Below are positions 21,794-62,369 of a stretch of 64,000 nt of DNA, piece after piece. The stretch's first letter is position 1; each line of letters opens with the position of its first letter. The notes under the pieces were generated by a model that saw only the letters and a list, made by a program, of their open reading frames with translations, was not told where the DNA came from and ran no database searches. Source of the stretch: Gordonia namibiensis NBRC 108229 (lineage in GTDB: Bacteria > Actinomycetota > Actinomycetes > Mycobacteriales > Mycobacteriaceae); the NCBI RefSeq assembly GCF_000298235.1, contig NZ_BAHE01000053.1, positions 1 through 64,000 of the forward strand, given 5' to 3'. Made by a program: the position numbers and the translations under genes.

Positions 21794-22103
21794 AACTTGT
21801 TGTTCGCGCGGCGTCCACCGTCGGTGCACAGGTCTTGCCCTGTTATCCCACGCCGGTCCACAGCCTCCGGAGACAAAAATTGTCATTCGGAGATGGCCGA
21901 TCCGAGTGTGCGAGAACACAGAAGATCGACGCGTCAGTCTCGACCCGGGGAACAGAGTTGTGGTTCGGGCGGGTCGGATCCGACGGGATACGACGCCACC
22001 CTCACTCTTCGTTCGGGGCGCTGCGCCGCCCCTCGTTCTCCGTTGCGGGCGCCGCGACACCTTTCACAGCTGCCTGTTTCGGTCGGCGCGACGCCTTTTA
22101 CAC

Positions 22104-22146
22104 GCTGCCTGAGGTGCGAGGAGCGCAGCGACGAGCCACGAAGGCC
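22104..22146. repeat. Intergenic repeat, type 1 copy beside oriC
   Basis: This 43-base element begins GCTGCCTGAGGTGCGAGGAG and ends CGAGCCACGAAGGCC. It recurs with one inserted base at 58389-58432 and shares the core GCGAGGAGCGCAGCGACGAG with the type 2 pair at 54474-54573. Confidence 0.8.
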
Positions 22147-22211
22147 TGGTGAGACGACGCCGCCGACGCTAGCCCCTCCAGGAGCACCCAGATCGACCCC
22201 TGACACACGAA

Positions 22212-22265: not shown

Positions 22266-23798
22266 TCAGCCCACCGCACGCTGCTTGATGCGGGCGGTCA
22301 GCTCCTGGACGTGGTCGTACACCTTGCGGCGCTCGGCCATCTCCTTGCGGATCTTGCGTTCGGCGTACATGACCGTGGTGTGGTCGCGGTCGAATGTCTC
22401 GCCGATCTTCGGCAGCGACAGGTCGGTCAGCTCGCGGCACAGGTACATCGAGATCTGACGTGCCTGGGCGATGGACCGGGTTTTACCGGGTCCGCGCAGC
22501 TCCTCGACCGAGATGTCGAAATACTCGGCGGTGATCGCGAGGATGCTGGCGGCGCTGACCTCGAGGGTGCCCGAGTTGGGCAGCAGTGCCTGCAGGACGA
22601 CGTCGGCGAGCGACTTGTCGAGCGCTGCGTCGTTGAGTGAGGCGAACGCCGTAACGCGGATCAGCGCACCCTCGAGCTCGCGGATGTTGCGTTCGATCTT
22701 CGACGCGATCAGCTCGAGGACGTCGTCGGGCACCGCGATGTTGTCCATCTGCGCCTTTTTGCGCAGGATGGCGATGCGGGTTTCCAGGTCGGGCGGCTGG
22801 ACGTCGGTGATCAGACCCCACTCGAACCGCGTGCGGAGTCGATCTTCAAGTGTGGCAAGCTGTTTCGGCGGACGATCGGACGAGATGACGATCTGCTTGC
22901 TCGCATTGTGGAGGGTGTTGAAGGTGTGGAAGAACTCTTCCTGGATACCTTCTTTACCCACCAGGAACTGGATGTCGTCGACCAGCAGCACGTCGACATC
23001 GCGGTAGCGGCGCTTGAACGCCACCCGCCGGTCGTCACGCAGCGAGTTGATGAAGTCGTTGGTGAATTCCTCGGTCGAGACGTACTTGACGCGCATCCCG
23101 GGGAACAGCCGTTGGGCGTAGTGTCCGGCCGCATGGAGCAGGTGGGTCTTGCCCAGTCCCGACTCTCCCCAGATGAACAGCGGGTTGTACGCCCGTGCCG
23201 GAGCCTCGGACACCGCGACGGCCGACGCGTGCGCGAAGCGATTCGACGCACCGATGACGAAAGTGTCAAAGGTGTACTTGGGGTTCAGGTTTGCGCCCGA
23301 CGGCGACGGCGTGCTCGTCGGCCGCTCGGCGAAATAGGAGGCCCAGTCGCCCGACGGTCGTCCGGTGTCGCCACCGGGCACCGCTCCGGCACCCGGGGCC
23401 GCCGGGAATCCGGCACCGATCGCCGCACCCGGGACCGCGGAGTAGTCGACCGGTGCCGAGCCGTTGACCAGGCGTGGTTCGGGCGCGGCCGGCTCCGGCA
23501 CTGGTTCGTCGTTGCGGGGTGTCTGGATGCGGACGCCGAGGTCCACGGGCTCGTTGAGGTGACGGCTCAGAACGGATCGGATCGTCTCGCGCAGATTGCG
23601 CTCGATCTGTTCCTGGACCAGAGCGGTCGGCACGGTGAGGAGGGCGAATCCCTCGGTGAGGGTGAGGGGTCGAACCAGTGACAGCCACGCCTTCTGCTGG
23701 CGGGTCAGTGGTTCGTGGTCACGTGCGGCTTCGTCGTCGTTGAGTTCGGCGACGACCTGTTGCCACACCTCACCGAATGTGTCGCGGTCTGAAGTCAC
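22266..23798 (-). CDS. dnaA: Chromosomal replication initiator DnaA
   Basis: This 510-residue protein has four DnaA domains: an N-terminal interaction domain, a variable Pro/Gly/Ala linker (about 90-170), an AAA+ core and a DNA-binding domain. Walker A is GESGLGKT near 211-218 and Walker B is [10 protein letters not shown] near 275. The box-recognition signature [11 protein letters not shown] is near the C terminus. It binds DnaA boxes in the adjacent region and opens oriC. The GTG at 23798 is chosen because AGGAGG precedes it at 8-base spacing and the product begins [12 protein letters not shown], in line with the family; an upstream start would add 24 unsupported residues. Confidence 0.97.
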
Positions 23799-24313
23799 GG
23801 GGCTGGCCTCCTGACCCGGAAAACTACCAGCGTTGACGCGGGCCGGGGCACCCCACGTCATCGACCGCATCTCTCCACAGAGTTATCCACACCTGTGTAC
23901 AACGGTGATGACGAACTTGGGACTTTGGTCGGTAACCTCGGATCCCGGCGACACTTCGTTCGTGTCCGGCAGGGGTTCGCGGCCGACGCTCTGACAGAAC
24001 CTAACAGAGGTGTCGGCGGGCGACAAAGCGATCGGGACAATTGACTCGTTCGAACTGATTGTCGTCATCCGCGTGCTCCAGAACACACCTGGTGAGAGAC
24101 TGTTCTGCTGCCCCGACGACCGCGTTTGATTTGAGCGCGCGCTGTCAGTAGTCTCGACTGGTCATCCAGGTTGCGGATTTGCGCGGCGTTTTGTCATGTT
24201 CGCCGAGTTCATCACCGACAAGAGTTCGGCACCGTCCTGGATCAACGACCAACGACAACATGTGGGTCACGTGCGGGTAACCGGCGTGCTCACAGGGAGC
24301 ACAAGGAGTCACC
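23799..24313. other. Divergent dnaA/rpmH promoter region
   Basis: These 515 bases separate dnaA (minus) from rpmH (plus). A perfect TTATCCACA DnaA box at 23883-23891 lies 85 bases upstream of the dnaA start, consistent with autoregulation or with an extension of the origin. A weaker CTCTCCACA lies at 23871-23879. The middle part is AT-richer than its surroundings. rpmH promoters must lie in the right half. No gene is evident. Confidence 0.7.
23883..23891 (+). promoter_or_regulatory. DnaA box upstream of dnaA
   Basis: TTATCCACA is the canonical box, close to the dnaA start, so DnaA could repress its own transcription from here. Confidence 0.75.
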
Positions 24314-26624: not shown

Positions 26625-26665
26625 CCGCACAAGACTTGTTCGAAGCACACAGTTAGGTGAATGAG

Positions 26666-27322
26666 ATGACAGCAGAGACTGCAACTCAAACCGGAACCGG
26701 GACCGAGGCACAGGACGACGCCAAGGCCACGACCGATGCCCAGACCGACACCGCCGAGTCCACGGGAGCGGACGCCGCTGCCGACACCGACGTCACCGAG
26801 GAGTCCGCCGAGGAGTCCGCCGAGGATTTTGACGACGATCAGGACGATGACGAGGACGATGAGGATCGCCTCGTCGAAGAGGGTGAGATCGCGGGCGACT
26901 ACCTCGAGCAGCTGCTCGACGTTCTCGACTTCGACGGCGACATCGATCTGGATGTCGACGGTGACCGTGCCGTCGTCAGCATCGACGGGGGCGACGACCT
27001 GACGAAGCTCGTCGGCCGCAAGGGTGAGGTTCTCGACGCCCTGCAGGAGCTGACCCGCCTCGCGGTCCAGCAGGCGACCGGCGAGCGCAGCCGGCTGATG
27101 CTCGACATCGCCCGGTGGCGTGCCGACCGTCGTGACCGCCTGGCCCGTCTCGGTCGCGAGGTCGCCGAGCGTGTGCTCAAGTCGGGCGAGCGTGAAGCGC
27201 TCGATCCGATGACCCCGTTCGAGCGTAAGATCGTTCACGATGCGGTCGCCGCCGTCGACGGTGTCGTCAGCGAGAGCGAGGGCGCCGAGCCCAAGCGCCG
27301 GGTGGTGGTCCTCCCCGAGTAG
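26666..27322 (+). CDS. khpB: KhpB/Jag RNA-binding protein (KH-R3H)
   Basis: The 218-residue product has a long acidic N terminus (runs of Asp and Glu to about residue 70). A KH-like domain with the GxxG loop as GRKG follows (VGRKGEVLDALQELTRLAVQ), and then an R3H domain (ALDPMTPFERKIVHDAVAAV). KhpB/Jag proteins bind RNA and affect growth and division in Gram-positive bacteria. The ATG at 26666 is preferred, with AGGTG a few bases upstream; an in-frame GTG lies three codons earlier. It follows yidC by 41 bases, the standard order. A terminator follows. Confidence 0.92.
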   Translation: MTAETATQTGTGTEAQDDAKATTDAQTDTAESTGADAAADTDVTEESAEESAEDFDDDQDDDEDDEDRLVEEGEIAGDYLEQLLDVLDFDGDIDLDVDGDRAVVSIDGGDDLTKLVGRKGEVLDALQELTRLAVQQATGERSRLMLDIARWRADRRDRLARLGREVAERVLKSGEREALDPMTPFERKIVHDAVAAVDGVVSESEGAEPKRRVVVLPE

Positions 27323-27345
27323 GACTCGCCCGAACCTGAAGCCCA

Positions 27346-27376
27346 CTCAGGCCCCGACCGACGGTCGGGGCCTGAG
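27346..27376 (+). terminator. Terminator of the rpmH-khpB operon
   Basis: A 14-bp perfect stem (27346-27359 with 27363-27376) with a 3-base loop is followed by TCGTTTTC, an intrinsic terminator 23 bases past the khpB stop. Confidence 0.9.
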
Positions 27377-27458
27377 TCGTTTTCAGGGCTCCCCTCCCCT
27401 GCCGTTCTGGTGCCGACGTCTCGGTGTCCCGGCTCCGCGCGGGAATCACAACGGTGTT

Positions 27459-27472
27459 GTTTCACGTGAAAC
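27459..27472. promoter_or_regulatory. parS: parS site 1 (perfect)
   Basis: GTTTCACGTGAAAC is a perfect 14-bp palindrome identical to the core of the bacterial parS consensus TGTTTCACGTGAAACA; the preceding T also matches. Confidence 0.93.
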
Positions 27473-28200
27473 CGGACGGGGTCGGAGTGTGTACGCACTC
27501 GACTCTGAACGCCTAACTCGTGGTGGCTCGAGTAATGATCCGCGACGGGGACGGTTGGCAAGTGCGAAGCCCGCCGGCGGACGGGGTGCCGAGACGTCGA
27601 ACTGACCGTTCCGGGGCTTTAAAGACAGCGAATTTTCAGGACCTGAGTCATCGGTGCTGATTCGTCACGTGTCGATTCATTCCGATCCGGTCCCCGGTTG
27701 CCGGGTAGCGCTGCTTATCCCCGCCCCGGGTTTCGCGTGCTGGGCATAACACTCGGGTCCCCTGCTGTCGGAGGGCCATGCCCTGGGCGGCGTGCTCGGG
27801 GGAATACCGCGCGTGGTTGTGTGTCCGGCTGCTGACGCCAGGACAGAATGATCCCCCCGGCCTGAAGCCACCGCAGTCGTCTCACCCAACTCTTGTCCGA
27901 CGCTGATATCGCAGACGTGGCAATTGTCGGCAATTGCCGGCGTCCTACCGTGGCGGTTCGAAGCGTCACGGCCGTCGGCGAGCTGTCGATACGAGCCTCG
28001 TCGGACGCGCATCATCTCGAGCGAGACCGGAACTGCGGGTTCACCCGACTTGAAGTCAGTAGCCGACCCTCGCGTCCACGGAACCGGATCGTCGATCACC
28101 TCCGATGGTGAACCCCCGCGGTTAGAGCTACAGCCGCCAGACGTCGCGCATGGTGTCGGACACCGACACGCTTCGCGACACCTGCGTGCGCACTGGCGCG

Positions 28201-28214
28201 GTTCCACGTGAAAC
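28201..28214. promoter_or_regulatory. parS: parS site 2 (one mismatch)
   Basis: GTTCCACGTGAAAC differs from the palindromic core at one position (T to C in the left arm). Confidence 0.82.
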
Positions 28215-28666
28215 CGCGCCGACTCTGTATCAAGTGGCCCGCGGCCAACTCAGGCGGCCTTGGTTTGACTCTGGATCGCTGGGGCGCCCGGCGACAGGAG
28301 CACCTGCGGGTCGAAGAAGTCCGCTTGCAGATGCGCCGACCCTCAAGACCGGTGTCTGCCGTCGCAGCGAAGGTGAAGCTGTCGGTCGGTCCGGACGCGG
28401 AGAGGTACGTACGCGACGCTTCCTGAAACCTGGCCCCGCTCCCCTCCCCCACCGGAATGGGTTCACGTCGCCGATAAGAGAAACACCCGGCGTGCTCGGG
28501 TGTTCGCACAGTCATGGCGCACGGACCGGGTCGAGTCTGACGTCGTCGCGGTTGTCGGAGGCGCGGCGCGGCGGGTAACGGTACGGTCTGTGGCTCGGCC
28601 GATCGGAGGCGCCTACGCTCACGCAAAAAGAGCCGCGATGACCCCGGACCGGAATGACATGGTGTC

Positions 28667-28680
28667 GTTTCACGTGAAAC
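28667..28680. promoter_or_regulatory. parS: parS site 3 (perfect)
   Basis: This is an exact GTTTCACGTGAAAC core. Confidence 0.92.
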
Positions 28681-29382
28681 CGTGCGCCCTCCTATCGCTG
28701 AACCTGACCCGGCAGCATCGCCCGGTCCCATATGAAGCCGTCGCAACCGGTGCTTCGGCGAACCAGGCGTTTGTTACGCGGTCGTCGAATCGAACTGCCC
28801 TACGTCGGACCCGCGCTCACTGGCAGGGACCCCTTCGCTTTCGCCGACGTGTAGACCGGCTCGCTCGCTCCGGGATGATCCTCAGTCTGCGCGAAGGACG
28901 CCGCTACCCTCCCGTCGAGCCGGGTGCACGCCGCTCAGTGACCCGTCTGTGCGTTCAGCCGTCAGCCATATCAGGCGAACCCACGATCGTCGTCGGGGCT
29001 GGGGCACCTGGCGGTAGTCGAAGGGGGCCGTTGCTGCGCCACCACGATATGCCGGGTACTACTAAGCAGTGCGTGGTCTGAGCCGGCCAGTAGGGATAGC
29101 AGCGTACTGACTGGGCGACCTCGTGGGCGAGAACCTGGCGTCACAGCACCCGCGCGGGAGCGGTCCTCGATTTCGCTTTGGTTCACCGCGGTCCGACTAG
29201 TGGCCGTATGGGGATCGGCAGTTCCCGCCCATCGATCGGGTCCTCGTGTCGGGGGTCAGATCAGCCACCGCAGACGTCACACGAACCGACCGGCACCCTG
29301 CCATTCTCCGAGGGGAAACCTTCTGGGATCGGTTGGCTTCGGGCGGCGTTCGGGGGAACCGATGGCAAATAACAACGATGTG

Positions 29383-29396
29383 GTTTCACGTGAAAC
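29383..29396. promoter_or_regulatory. parS: parS site 4 (perfect)
   Basis: This is an exact GTTTCACGTGAAAC core followed by A, so 15 of the 16 consensus bases match. Confidence 0.93.
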
Positions 29397-29439
29397 ATGG
29401 GCCGTGGCGGTGATGTGTACCGACCGTCAGTCCCGCCCG

Positions 29440-29453
29440 GTTCCACGTGAAAC
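29440..29453. promoter_or_regulatory. parS: parS site 5 (one mismatch)
   Basis: GTTCCACGTGAAAC, the same variant as site 2, lies 34 bases before the rsmG start and 57 bp from site 4, so ParB spreading could cover the rsmG promoter. Confidence 0.83.
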
Positions 29454-29486
29454 ACTGTCATAGGACCAACTAGAAACGGAGGCCAA

Positions 29487-30188
29487 GTGTCGTCAGACGC
29501 TCAACCCGATGACCATCCCGACCTTGACGCATTGCAGACCCCGCCGGCTTCGGCAGACGCGGTCTTCGGCGAACGTAAGGAACTGGCGAAGGGTTACTGG
29601 CGAATACTGGCCACCGATGGGATCGACCACGGCCTGATGGGACCCCGCGAGGTGCCACGGTTGTGGGATCGCCACATCCTCAACTGCGCGGTGATCGGGG
29701 AACTGATCAAGGAGGACGAGACGGTGTTCGACGTCGGGAGCGGCGCGGGTCTCCCCGGGCTACCGCTCGCGATCGCGCGCCCAGATGTGTCCATCACCCT
29801 GATCGAACCGCTGCTCCGGCGCAGCACCTTCCTCGAGCGAGCGGTGGAGACACTCGGTCTCGAGAACGTGCGGGTTGTTCGCGGCCGTGCGGAGGAGAAG
29901 GCGGTCCGCGCCGATGTCGGCCTCGCGGACGTGGTCACCTCACGGGCCGTTGCGCCGCTCGAGCGACTTTCCAAGTGGTCCGCTCCCCTGGTTCGCGGGG
30001 GCGGTCGGATGATCGCGATCAAGGGATCCTCGGCAGCCGAAGAGATCGAGCGGGATCGCGCGGTGGTCGGGCGGACCGGAATCAGCGACCTCCGCGTCGT
30101 CACGTGTGGGGCGGTTCTCGAGACTCCGACGACGGTCGTCGTAGGGACGAAGGCGGAGCGCGCGGCCAAGAAACAGCGACGGCGATGA
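29487..30188 (+). CDS. rsmG: 16S rRNA (guanine-N7) methyltransferase RsmG (GidB)
   Basis: This 233-residue protein methylates N7 of G527 (E. coli numbering) in 16S rRNA; loss gives low-level streptomycin resistance in related species. The SAM-binding motif VFDVGSGAGLPGLPLAIARP is near 85-104, preceded by LWDRHILNCAVI. The family-typical TSRAVAPLERLSKW follows, and a basic C terminus ends the protein. The GTG start is preceded by GGAGG. It heads the rsmG-parA-parB group, and parS sites 4 and 5 lie in its upstream region. Confidence 0.96.
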   Translation: MSSDAQPDDHPDLDALQTPPASADAVFGERKELAKGYWRILATDGIDHGLMGPREVPRLWDRHILNCAVIGELIKEDETVFDVGSGAGLPGLPLAIARPDVSITLIEPLLRRSTFLERAVETLGLENVRVVRGRAEEKAVRADVGLADVVTSRAVAPLERLSKWSAPLVRGGGRMIAIKGSSAAEEIERDRAVVGRTGISDLRVVTCGAVLETPTTVVVGTKAERAAKKQRRR

Positions 30189-30413
30189 GTACCGACTCGG
30201 TCGTTCGAGCCGGTGCGGCGGATCCCGCCGATGGTGTCACACAGAGGGAGTTCTGAATTGGTATGGAGTCCGCGTAAGGCGCAGAATAGAAAGCGATCTG
30301 GCAGCGCGTCTCGGCGCGCTGCCGTCGACGATTCTGCATCTGTCGGAGCCGGGGCGACGCCCGCCGGACCCGACAACTCGAACGCCTACCAGGTAGGTCA
30401 AAGGAGTGCCCGC

Positions 30414-31370
30414 GTGGTCGATCAAGACCCGAACGTTTCACGTGAAACGCCAGCCGCTGGAGCCCCGCCCGTCGCGGGCGAACCATACGCCGACACCCCG
30501 ATCGCCATGGCTGCGGAGCGCGCCAGCCAAGTCCTGACCCCGGGGGGTGCCGGCCAACTCCCCCGTCCCCAGCACACCAGGATCATGACCGTTGCGAACC
30601 AGAAGGGTGGCGTCGGTAAGACCACCACCGCGGTGAACCTGGCAGCCGGTCTCGCTGTCCGTGGACTGCGCGTACTTGTCGTGGATCTCGACCCCCAGGG
30701 CAACGCGAGCACCGCCCTGGGCATCGACCATCGGGCCGAGGACATCGCTTCCGTCTACGAACTGCTCCTCGGCGAGGTGACTCTCAAGGAGGCCATCCAG
30801 GAGTCGCCGAGCCAGCAGGGACTCTTCTGTGTGCCGGCGACACTCGATCTGGCCGGTGCCGAGATCGAGCTCGTGTCCCTGGTGGCTCGTGAGAACAGGC
30901 TTCGCAACGCGCTCTCCGACGAGGTGCTGGCCGAATATCAGATCGACTACGTCTTCATCGACTGCCCACCGTCGCTCGGCCTGCTGACCGTCAACGCGAT
31001 GGTCGCCGCCCGCGAGGTCCTCATCCCGATCCAGTGCGAGTACTACGCACTCGAGGGTGTGGGGCAGCTCCTGAGAAACATCGAGCTCGTCCAAGCGCAC
31101 CTCAACCGTGGGCTGCACGTGTCGACGATCGTCCTCACGATGTACGACGGTCGGACCAAGCTGGCCGATCAGGTGGCTGAGGAAGTCCGCCGCCACTTCG
31201 GCGACAAGGTACTCGGCACGATCATCCCCCGCAGCGTGAAGGTGTCCGAGGCACCCGGTTACGGGATGACGATCATCGAATACGACCCGGGTTCACGTGG
31301 GGCGATGAGTTACCTCGACGCGGCGCGCGAGCTCGCTCTCCGCGGTGCAGCAGAAGACGCTCAGGCATGA
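30414..31370 (+). CDS. parA: Chromosome partitioning ATPase ParA
   Basis: This 318-residue protein is a deviant Walker A ATPase ([18 protein letters not shown] near 65-80), with [13 protein letters not shown] and [17 protein letters not shown] further on. It forms gradients on the nucleoid and moves ParB-parS complexes. The GTG at 30414 is chosen because AAGGAG precedes it at 7-base spacing. The N-terminal 60 residues form a disordered extension in which parS site 6 encodes NVSRET. An in-frame start 201 bases upstream is open but overlaps the intergenic region and has no comparable ribosome-binding site. parB follows after 34 bases. Confidence 0.95.
30435..30448. promoter_or_regulatory. parS: parS site 6, inside the parA coding sequence
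   Basis: A perfect GTTTCACGTGAAAC core lies at about codons 8-12 of parA, where it encodes VSRET. The site is therefore constrained both as DNA and as protein. Confidence 0.92.
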
Positions 31371-31404: not shown

Positions 31405-32445
31405 ATGAGTCAACGGGACACCGCGCAGCGCCGAGGCGGACTGGGTCGTGGACTGGCCGCACTCATCCCGACCGGTCCCACCGAGGATCAGTCGAACGCT
31501 CCTCGACTGGGCAACGCAGCGGCCGACGTTGTCATCGGCAAAGGCCCTTCGCCCGTGGTCGACGGCCGGCCCTCCTACCCCGTCGATGCCTCGACGGTTG
31601 ACGTGTTGAGCCGCGAAGAGGCCGGTGCCGTCTACCGGGAGATCCCGCCCAAGCAGATCCAACCGAACCCCAACCAGCCGCGAACGGTCTTCGACGACGA
31701 GCAGATGTCCGAGCTCGTCCACTCGATCCGCGAGTTCGGATTGATGCAACCGATCGTCGTACGGCGCCTGAAGGAGCCGACGGCTGACGGTGTCGCCTAC
31801 CAGATCGTCATGGGTGAGCGCCGCTGGCGAGCGAGCCAGGAGGTCGGCCTCGAGGCCATTCCGGCCATTGTTCGTGAGACCGCCGACGGCGACATGCTGC
31901 GTGACGCACTGCTCGAGAACATCCACCGCGCACAACTGAATCCGTTGGAGGAGGCGGCCGCCTACCAACAGCTTCTCGAAGAGTTCGGTGTCACCCACGA
32001 GCAGCTGGCCGCTAGGCTCGGCCGCTCACGTCCGCTCATCAGCAACATGATCCGGTTGCTCAAGCTACCGATCCCGGTGCAGCGTCGGGTGGCGGCGGGT
32101 GTCCTGTCCGCCGGTCATGCACGCGCCCTCCTCTCCCTGGAGACCGGGAGCGATGCGCAGGAGGCTCTCGCCGCACGGATCGTCGCCGAGGGACTGTCTG
32201 TTCGCGCGACCGAGGAAGCTGTGACGCTCGCCAACCGCGGCGATGGGCCTGAGGCGAAGCCGGCGGCGCCGAAGCGTAAACCGATGCAGATGCCTGGACT
32301 CCAGGACCTCGCCGAGAGACTGTCCGACAGCCTGGACACCAGGGTTACAGTCAGTCTAGGGAAGCGGAAAGGGAAGATCGTGGTGGAATTCGGATCGGTT
32401 GACGACCTGGAACGTATCGTTCAGTTCATCGACCCGAACAAGTGA
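31405..32445 (+). CDS. parB: Chromosome partitioning protein ParB (CTPase)
   Basis: This 346-residue protein has the ParB N-terminal CTP-binding domain: [20 protein letters not shown] near 97, the [13 protein letters not shown] motif near 140 and the box [21 protein letters not shown] near 173. The helix-turn-helix ([26 protein letters not shown]) recognises parS, and a C-terminal dimerisation domain follows. The N terminus contains [12 protein letters not shown], the ParA-stimulating segment. The ATG at 31405 follows GGAGG. It binds the six nearby parS sites and clamps onto DNA. Confidence 0.97.
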
Positions 32446-60630: not shown

Positions 60631-60673
60631 CACGCCAATCGGTGACTGACACGCCAATCGGTGACTGACACGG
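60617..60673. repeat. Three tandem copies of a 19-bp unit at the end of the CocE-type gene
   Basis: The unit CAATCGGTGACTGACACGC repeats at 60617, 60636 and 60655 (last base differs in copy 3). The hydrolase stop (60628-60630) lies in copy 1. Confidence 0.9.
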
Positions 60674-60727
60674 CGAGAGGCGCTCGGCGACAGTCGATCT
60701 GACACGGACAGACACACTGACGACACA

Positions 60728-60763
60728 GCTGGAGCCGTCGACTTCTTGGTCGACGGCTCCAGC
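60728..60763. terminator. Bidirectional hairpin terminator
   Basis: A 14-bp perfect stem (60728-60741 with 60750-60763) with an 8-base loop lies between the convergent hydrolase and small membrane protein genes. Confidence 0.85.
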
Positions 60764-60837
60764 GTGTGCGATCTGTGCGGGGGCGCGGTTTCACCGACTA
60801 CATGCCGGTGCGTCCGCGGTTCGCCGCGTCGTTCGGG

Positions 60838-61167
60838 TCAGTGCCGACCAGCGTCGTCCTGCGGTTCTGGACTGCCCGACTTCGCCAGGCCTCTCGCGAT
60901 CATGTAACCGATGGTCAGCCACGTGATGTACTTGAGCGCCTCGGCAGCACCGAACGGATCGACGTCGCCATCGCCACCGCCCACCACCAGCGCGGTGATC
61001 ACGACGGCGAGTACGGCGAGCCCATACGCGATCAGTTCACTCGTCTTCGTCGAAGCCTTTGTCTCTACATCTCGACGGAACCCGACGGGGTTTGGCGCGG
61101 CGATCGGGGGTGCAGAGTGGCCGGGCGCACCGGGATTGGGCGGCCGGTACGGTTCGGGGTTGGTCAT
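60838..61167 (-). CDS. Small conserved membrane protein
   Basis: This 109-residue protein begins MTNPEPYRPPNPGAPGHSAP, a Pro-rich cytoplasmic start. Two hydrophobic segments follow (LIAYGLAVLAVVITALVVGG and ALKYITWLTIGYMIARGLAK) with a charged tail. I do not recognise the family. AAAGG precedes the ATG at 61167 by 8 bases on the minus strand. A short hairpin (61195-61219) lies upstream. It is isolated between two terminator-like structures and so is probably monocistronic. Confidence 0.7.
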   Translation of the reverse strand: MTNPEPYRPPNPGAPGHSAPPIAAPNPVGFRRDVETKASTKTSELIAYGLAVLAVVITALVVGGGDGDVDPFGAAEALKYITWLTIGYMIARGLAKSGSPEPQDDAGRH

Positions 61168-61194
61168 GAGAAGGCCTTTCCTCGAATTGCTCAC

Positions 61195-61219
61195 CCTTCT
61201 CCGGTGACCCCGGAGAAGG
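61195..61219. promoter_or_regulatory. Hairpin upstream of the small membrane protein gene
   Basis: A 10-bp stem (CCTTCTCCGG at 61195, CCGGAGAAGG at 61210) with a 5-base loop sits 28 bases upstream of the start codon. It could be an mRNA leader hairpin or a regulator site. No known riboswitch pattern was recognised. Confidence 0.45.
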
Positions 61220-61373
61220 TGCACCTCTGTGCATCTCAGGGGTCCCCCGCTCAGGGAGCCGCCAAACACCGGGCAAAACAGTCAATCGTGCCGTGTCTCG
61301 CCCGTATCCGTACCCGACCGCATCGAACAGGCCGCGGGCCCGCGATTTTGTTCGACGTGAAGCCAGGTAATCG

Positions 61374-62369
61374 TCAGGAGGTCTCCGCAGCCTCCGCCTC
61401 ACGTCCATACCGCGTGGCCAGCCATGAGCAGATGATGAGCTGGATCTGATGGAAGATCATCAGCGGTAGGACGATGAGGCCGACGGTCGAACCGGCGAAG
61501 AGGACGGTGGCCATCGGGAGTCCGGTGGCGAGGCTTTTCTTGGTGCCGCAGAACTGGATGGCGATGGTGTCCGCGCGGTCGAAGCCGAGTTTCTTCGGCG
61601 CCCAGCCGGTCACCACGAGCATGACCAGCACGAGCAGCAGCGAGATCACCGCGACGGCGATCACCTGGGCGGCGTCGACCGACGACCAGATGCCGTTGAC
61701 GACGCCCTCGCTGAAGGCGACATAGACGACGAGGACGATGGTGCTGCGGTCGGCGAGCTTGGTGATCTTGGCGTGCCGGGCGAAGAACGGGCCGACCCAG
61801 GGTCGAGCGAGCTGACCGATCACGAACGGCACCAGGATCTGCGCCACGATCTTCAGGATCGACGTCGCGTCGATGCTCGCATCGCCGGTGTTGTGCATCA
61901 GCGCGACCACCAGCAGCGGGGTGAGGAACACGCCCAGGATGTTCGACGCGGAGGCGCTGACGATCGCGCCCGCGATGTTGCCCTTCGCCATCGAGGTGAA
62001 CGCGATCGACGACTGCACCGTCGACGGCACGAGGCACAGGAACAGGAGTCCGGCGTAGAGATCGGAACCGATCAGCGGCTCGACGACCGGCTTCAGGGCC
62101 AGACCGATGATCGGGAACGCCACGAACGTGAACGCCAGGATCGTCACGTGGAGGCGCCAGTGCTTCAAGCCTTCGAGTGCTTCACGCGGGTGGAGTCGCG
62201 TGCCGTAGAGGAAGAAGAGGGCGCCGATCGCGATGATGACGACCCACTCGAACACATCCCCGGCGGCACCACGGACGGGCAGGAAAGCGGCGACGACGAC
62301 CGCGGCCACGATCGCGAGGATGAATCCGTCGATCGGTGAGCGGTCGAGAAGGTTCTTGAGCGTGCGCAT
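61374..62369 (-). CDS. Bile acid:sodium symporter (BASS)-family transporter
   Basis: This 331-residue protein has about ten hydrophobic segments. It contains VPSTVQSSIAFTSMAKGNIAGAI near 114-136 and FCGTKKSLATGLPMATVLF near 275, the conserved crossover regions of BASS proteins. It probably transports an organic anion with Na+; the substrate is not known. ATG at 62369 is used. It lies 28 bases downstream of the SdpI-like gene on the same strand, so the two may be an operon. Confidence 0.87.
   Translation of the reverse strand: MRTLKNLLDRSPIDGFILAIVAAVVVAAFLPVRGAAGDVFEWVVIIAIGALFFLYGTRLHPREALEGLKHWRLHVTILAFTFVAFPIIGLALKPVVEPLIGSDLYAGLLFLCLVPSTVQSSIAFTSMAKGNIAGAIVSASASNILGVFLTPLLVVALMHNTGDASIDATSILKIVAQILVPFVIGQLARPWVGPFFARHAKITKLADRSTIVLVVYVAFSEGVVNGIWSSVDAAQVIAVAVISLLLVLVMLVVTGWAPKKLGFDRADTIAIQFCGTKKSLATGLPMATVLFAGSTVGLIVLPLMIFHQIQLIICSWLATRYGREAEAAETS

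Follow-up and report, generated by a model that had tools for sequence, protein, structure and literature searches.

Close relatives of Gordonia namibiensis NBRC 108229 carry unrelated DNA in one and the same chromosomal interval, the gap between khpB and rsmG beside dnaA, and this divergence goes beyond that of synonymous sites. The interval was studied in a window of 64,000 nucleotides (assembly GCF_000298235.1, contig NZ_BAHE01000053.1, positions 1 to 64,000), to which all coordinates refer. It contains five of six sites that are, by their sequence, firmly assigned as the parS sites of a chromosomal ParABS locus of the ordinary kind, with dnaA close by. We consider it probable, though well short of certain, that the silent spacer of this parS cluster serves as a sink for insertions and that the parS and promoter modules are kept.

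Perfect copies of the parS sequence GTTTCACGTGAAAC start at 27459, 28667, 29383 and 30435, and copies with a single mismatch, GTTCCACGTGAAAC, at 28201 and 29440. Five of the six lie inside the gap of 2,164 bp between the khpB stop codon (27322) and the rsmG start (29487), and the sixth is located in the 5' end of the parA frame; the initial annotation of this DNA had given the same positions and counts. No further site within two mismatches was detected anywhere in the window, for which the chance expectation is 0.11 sites and in which six sites were reached in none of 100 shuffles. A search of the whole assembly (67 contigs, 4.94 Mb) with up to one mismatch yielded no seventh site, and at this threshold all parS of the assembly fall within 3 kb adjoining dnaA.

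The outer sites are conserved in the window's clade of 12 species. In all of them a distal module of the type found here, a half-palindrome joined to parS, follows the khpB stop by 112-177 bp, a parS is present at -47 to -63 of rsmG and another at +898 to +951. Of the 59 genomes of the genus, 57 have a site within one mismatch between +807 and +987 relative to rsmG. The interior sites have neither position nor flanks in common among relatives; in each of the six species of the window's subclade, interior parS stand in DNA that is otherwise unrelated, and a module resembling the interior one of the window is found at -691 in the nearest relative, G034. The T-to-C change shared by the two weak copies had been taken as a sign of duplication or deliberate weakening. 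Duplication was rejected in view of their flanks, which share no sequence, of the orthology of the copy at 29440 and of the commonness of the variant, as 49 of the 75 sites with one mismatch in the 59 retrieved regions are GTTCCACGTGAAAC or its reverse complement. At 29440 the identical variant stands at -47/-49 in six of six subclade species, and the perfect form is found there in six of six species of the sister subclade. The copy at 28201 looks like a decayed perfect site because its variant base alone breaks the 26-bp palindrome around it. The variant is the commonest tolerated one, and neither duplication nor a special design is needed.

Codon-usage scores were negative in all listed windows from approximately 27330 to 29400 (one window in three being listed). 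The top-scoring open reading frame (ORF) of the gap, with 72 amino acids, reached 9.3 bits, compared with 42-83 bits for the best ORFs of five gene-bearing Rhodococcus gaps, and the best gap ORF in each of the 12 clade species scored at most 9.8 bits. No Pfam family was matched at its curated cut-off by eight gap ORFs (one sub-cut-off match, E 0.019), and no Rfam family was found in the gap at the gathering score. These results bear out the earlier statement that the gap lacks a convincing gene, and its suggestion of a regulatory RNA found no backing in either an Rfam match or conserved interior sequence. An origin of the segment from a plasmid or phage was rejected, as no plasmid or phage record matches the gap at E 1e-5.

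The window and G034 are collinear over the full 64 kb with 92-95% identity, and 31 genes compared between them show a nucleotide identity of 0.937 and a fourfold-site identity of 0.821. The genes used in such tests were ORFs filtered for length and composition (31, 31, 21, 31 and 27; 10-12 in the Rhodococcus tests). Within the spacer, positions 27685-28642 and 28681-29367 are unaligned with G034 on both sides (958 versus 815 bp and 687 versus 559 bp), and the sole aligned island is a stretch of 38 bp (28643-28680) with the half-palindrome and parS of the interior module. An interruption at the equivalent place was observed in all five relatives compared in full, G034 and four more, and on the right, where the proximal module has its edge, blastn matches begin again at 29368 in eight of 11 clade relatives. 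Apart from the parS module, the spacer has no same-locus match in the 58 other genomes of the genus (five candidates per genome scored). In the list of the 40 closest pairs, those from the clade align over just 7-37% of the first-named gap, and the four short-gap pairs with a core identity of 90-93% align over 92-100% of it. Global alignment of the corresponding blocks of the window genome (G000) and G034 gave z-scores of 3.2 and 1.6 against 60 shuffles, which is barely above the shuffles; the value for a simulated copy altered at half of its positions is 7.2, and the 210 bp beside the distal module gave 9.7.

rsmG was found in all 59 Gordonia genomes, and each of the 58 besides that of the window supplied its region for comparison. 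Gap lengths between khpB and rsmG run from 115 to 6,597 bp, with one to six sites per gap; the gap measures at least 500 bp in 23 genomes and is shorter in 36 (115-322 bp). In the window's clade (SH-aLRT, the approximate likelihood-ratio branch support, of 100) all gaps are long, at 602-2,470 bp, have little in common except their ends, and lengths differ several-fold among sister species. The initial annotation had held that this spacing is normally short, which is true of the 36 genomes below 500 bp and fails in all 11 other species of the clade. The alignment across relatives that it had called for shows conserved ends and end sites and a varying interior, spacing and site number. Of its picture of an expanded centromere or possible ParB platform, the part that stands is a parS cluster in a gene-free stretch that is longer than in many Gordonia. 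On a tree of YidC, RsmG and ParB (ParB being absent for a few genomes) the short or long state requires six changes, or five when well-supported branches alone are counted. Gap length is correlated with parS number (Spearman 0.79 over 59 genomes, kinship ignored), the mean being 3.87 parS in long gaps and 2.00 in short ones. The gaps of 115-119 bp in G024 (L058) and G044 (L078) are 98% identical. The short form seems to be strongly constrained because this identity is retained although the rsmG-parAB core of the two is 87% identical.

Expansion is also seen on the other side of rsmG. In Nocardia and in Gordonia amarae it is the rsmG-parA interval that is long and carries several parS, next to a short khpB-rsmG gap. 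A survey of both intervals comprised 123 rows, including two duplicates (L120 equals G004 and L131 equals G047); in four rows the parA end was out of reach, of which G004 was recovered as L120, and khpB was not found in three loci of an 80-locus set. In no surveyed row were both intervals expanded; the khpB-rsmG gap exceeds 500 bp in 33 rows, and the distance between rsmG and the ParA P-loop exceeds 700 bp in 32. Some long rsmG-parA intervals show little coding signal over 2-4.6 kb (L178, L168, L148), and others bear tandem repeats or candidate genes. In L120 (Gordonia amarae) approximately 6.3 kb separate the rsmG stop from the ParA P-loop, and 13 parS with up to one mismatch were counted.

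Three genomes of the Rhodococcus erythropolis group (core identity 94.8-95.9%, fourfold identity 0.87-0.88, gaps of 1.9-3.0 kb) allowed us to follow such changes at closer range. Between shared blocks, blocks of about 0.8-1.2 kb were gained or swapped; one genome has an additional 1.2 kb on the khpB side, and in another genome a 1.2-kb block replaces approximately 0.8 kb. Six of the nine blocks that pairs of these genomes have in common are 90-97% identical, and three (154-589 bp) are 80-82% identical. No coding signal was detected in the Rhodococcus gaps L162, L163, L166 and L138, and the alignable part of the first three is mainly the first 185-206 bp. One ORF in L132 was labeled acetyltransferase-like by eye, with Pfam finding none.

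The origin of the spacer DNA was traced for eight of the 23 long Gordonia spacers by searches against all 59 genomes. As these whole-genome searches score five to seven first-look candidates per genome, misses are possible. Pieces from elsewhere in Gordonia genomes were detected in five of the eight and in none of the other three. In the G021 spacer, 453 bp are 82% identical to a DEAD-box helicase gene (labeled by eye) of the same chromosome, with other species reaching at most 77%, and 71 bp are 89% identical to a second locus of its own, the next best match being 77%. The G015 spacer (L049) contains a dispersed repeat that matches itself on both strands; this spacer has matches in 27 of the 59 genomes, and copies of the repeat occur in G000 contigs C46, C61, C31, C58 and C26. 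The G029 spacer combines pieces of multicopy elements of other Gordonia with two pieces from one region of its own genome, and the G017 spacer holds a repeat that recurs four times elsewhere in its own genome; the transposon-like label of the multicopy pieces in both was given by eye. In the window, a stretch of 94 bases resembles the 3' end of a gene labeled otsA by eye. It is not a recent copy, since its identity to the otsA gene of its own genome (76%) does not exceed that to the otsA genes of relatives (75-79%, and 86% over 44 bases in G025).

Under the proposed reading as an insertion sink, ParB would, as is expected from its family, load at parS, slide along the adjoining DNA and serve ParA and SMC. 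The gene-free gap is bounded by the terminator of khpB and the promoter of rsmG. Transposon pieces, dispersed repeats and gene fragments of the same chromosome would land between the parS modules. The landed DNA, neither expressed nor selected, would decay and then be replaced, and at either end selection would maintain the modules of parS and promoter. New parS may arise in the new DNA, some of them by copying the module of half-palindrome and parS. We infer that ParB coverage makes the insertions tolerable, the extra length or sites being either useful or neutral. For plasmids, a ParABS review (PMC7333895) cites work in which P1 ParB was reported to silence genes located near parS.

Several points weigh against the insertion sink. 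As a control the short-gap pairs are imperfect, gaps of 115-224 bp being made up largely of conserved end modules. The left blocks of G000 and G034 retain a trace of similarity (z 3.2, with mismatched pairs at approximately 0) that fits fast erosion as well as replacement, and turnover was measured between species. The blocks swapped among the three Rhodococcus genomes carry ORFs, including a MerR-type regulator and a DUF6301 protein by Pfam match, and are thus gene cassettes and not silent DNA; in Gordonia, ORFs of doubtful coding score (21-25 bits) are present in the gaps of G002, G007 and G014, and clear coding ORFs in that of G048. Tracing was confined to eight of the 23 long spacers, with no control set of ordinary intergenic regions. 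Most of the window spacer has no traced source, as beyond the otsA-like piece only two weak, uncounted own-genome matches were obtained at approximately 28132-28221 (E 4.4e-6 and 6.5e-4). The spacers of G034, G028 and G005 yielded only short matches at chance level, in the transition zone or to the parS module, and the idea that the whole spacer is built of own-genome fragments was not upheld.

A different emphasis is placed by the possibility that length itself is selected, with 0.6-2.5 kb of transcription-free DNA of irrelevant sequence being needed for ParB clamps or SMC loading. The species of the clade hold 602-2,470 bp in 12 of 12 cases despite near-complete sequence turnover, longer gaps have more parS and each measured genome is expanded on one side of rsmG only. 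The 36 of 59 Gordonia that manage with 115-322 bp, and the several-fold length variation among sister species, speak against such a requirement; we regard it as a real possibility that is nonetheless less than even, and one compatible with an insertion sink as the source of the DNA. A bolder extension is that bacterial centromeres accumulate DNA of a pericentromere-like kind, in which the ParB coat would silence or shield incoming DNA, transposons and gene fragments would gather and decay, and insertions would separate and seed parS, so that clusters grow and move to either side of rsmG through the very process that renders their flanks hypervariable. This proposal is tentative and rather unlikely as a whole. 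Ordinary neutral expansion of an intergenic region near the origin, unconnected to ParB, would likewise produce drifting, unconstrained DNA, of which the window has another variable stretch at 60.6-61.4 kb. The presence of parS in the expanded interval is a weak argument for a link to ParB, given that nearly every khpB-rsmG and rsmG-parA interval has at least one site. Interior parS in unrelated DNA of six of six subclade species, set against the 0.11 sites expected per 64 kb with two mismatches allowed, make this explanation unlikely. Local hypermutation, in which the interior would mutate several times faster than the chromosome and the selected modules survive, might account for the module order and similar spacings shared by G000 and G034, for the fading from clear similarity beside the distal module (210 bp) to a trace in the next block, and for the three Rhodococcus blocks that fall under the fourfold identity of 0.87. 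The remaining Rhodococcus blocks, at 90-97%, changed at an ordinary rate, the main differences come blockwise, and inserted pieces are present in traced spacers, so that hypermutation in pure form is disfavoured and improbable. A hidden gene or regulatory RNA, for which one could cite several open frames of 140-216 amino acids that are usual in G+C-rich DNA, is most improbable and was rejected, as codon signal, Pfam match at cut-off, Rfam match and same-locus interior match in other genus genomes (the parS module excepted) were all absent.

Half of a palindrome, GAATNACA-N4-TGTNATTC, is joined to the left edge of three parS (27443-27462, 28651-28666 and 29367-29386). At two of these places the full palindrome fits the window with two and three mismatches only, a result for which chance could suffice (0.59 expected). 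With up to one mismatch the full palindrome occurs in all 59 Gordonia genomes in one to 16 copies each, and a control pattern was absent from 57 of the 59. Further copies are located near whiB2-like, ripA-like and crgA-region genes (names by eye), and the set has the appearance of a small cell-division regulon. MtrA, whose binding repeats have direct and not inverted orientation, is a tentative candidate for the binder of GAATNACA-N4-TGTNATTC. The MtrA half-sites quoted in part of one report (PMC6265350) resemble ATNACA, and a literature search on the combined target names found no paper. A separate element, the CACGTG-containing TTCGTCACGTGTCGATTCA, is distinct from parS and stands at 27660-27680 in the transition zone; its TCACGTG core is kept in six of six subclade species.

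Table 1. Features of the khpB-rsmG gap and its surroundings in the window
Feature	Position	Strand	Basis or remark
dnaA (oriC side)	22266-23870	-	Pfam Bac_DnaA
khpB, left neighbour (R3H and KH domains)	26657-27322	+	Pfam; KH domain score below its cut-off
Terminator-like inverted repeat after khpB	27335-27387	+	Kept in 6/6 subclade species
Distal module: half-palindrome GAATNACA-N4-TGT joined to perfect parS (27459-27472)	27443-27472	+	Sequence, clade comparison
Transition zone	27473-27684		~70% identical to G034, mostly lost in others
Hypervariable gene-free spacer	27685-29367		Unaligned with 5/5 relatives compared in full
26-bp palindrome, one mismatch, enclosing weak parS GTTCCACGTGAAAC (28201-28214)	28195-28220		
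Interior module: half-palindrome-like stretch joined to perfect parS (28667-28680)	28651-28680	+	
Decayed piece similar to otsA 3' end	29098-29191	-	77% over 96 columns to G034 otsA; 76% over 82 columns to own otsA
Proximal module: half-palindrome joined to perfect parS (29383-29396)	29367-29396	+	
Weak parS, inherited	29440-29453	+	Ortholog comparison
rsmG (GidB), right neighbour	29487-30188	+	Pfam
parA, longest frame	30213-31370	+	Pfam
Perfect parS within 5' end of parA frame	30435-30448	+	Reads VSRET
parB	31405-32445	+	ParB_N, HTH_ParB, ParB_C; GERRWRA motif in translation

The gap begins approximately 3.5 kb from dnaA, and the true start of parA is probably near 30414. DnaA boxes with up to one mismatch were found in the dnaN-dnaA (three) and dnaA-rpmH (two) intervals; no such box is present in the gap, and a location of oriC inside it was rejected. 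The dnaN-dnaA interval (21995-22189) is unaligned with G034 too, with 195 versus 80 bp between flanks of more than 93% identity. The second length-variable stretch, at 60631-61391, measures 761 bp in the window, 40 bp in G034, 1,924 bp in G003 and 648 bp in G056.

Chromosomal insertion hotspots have conserved flanking genes and variable content between them, and the locus is similar in that some Rhodococcus and Gordonia relatives have ORFs or transposase-like frames here (assigned partly by eye; hydrolase- and transposase-like labels in L136, L145 and G048 were given by eye from translations). The window's clade differs in its gene-free content and parS-module flanks, and no integrase or tRNA target was seen. 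Eukaryotic pericentromeric DNA is fast-changing and rich in transposons and fragments around a conserved segregation function. The likeness is one of analogy and not homology. The sequence bound by ParB is a defined one, and the DNA concerned measures 0.6-6.6 kb. Among bacterial loci, a report on Corynebacterium glutamicum (PMC7083940) describes a similar parS consensus and a cluster near the origin, with nine of ten parS being intergenic and ParB chromatin immunoprecipitation (ChIP) signals at all ten. Those ten sites extend over 35 kb and lie 73 kb from oriC, whereas the six of the window are packed into 3 kb at a distance of 3.5-7 kb from dnaA, and five share a single gene-free, fast-changing gap. 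No description of this locus was found in the titles and abstract beginnings covered by literature searches, which is not proof of absence.

A passage of the ParABS review (PMC7333895) asks why the number of parS varies and what drives their clustering over evolutionary time. The khpB-rsmG locus provides a natural series for this question, comprising 59 Gordonia genomes with repeated changes of gap length, conserved end modules and exchangeable DNA between them. If it is true that ParB renders insertions harmless, parS clusters would be a bacterial counterpart of fast-evolving pericentromeric DNA.

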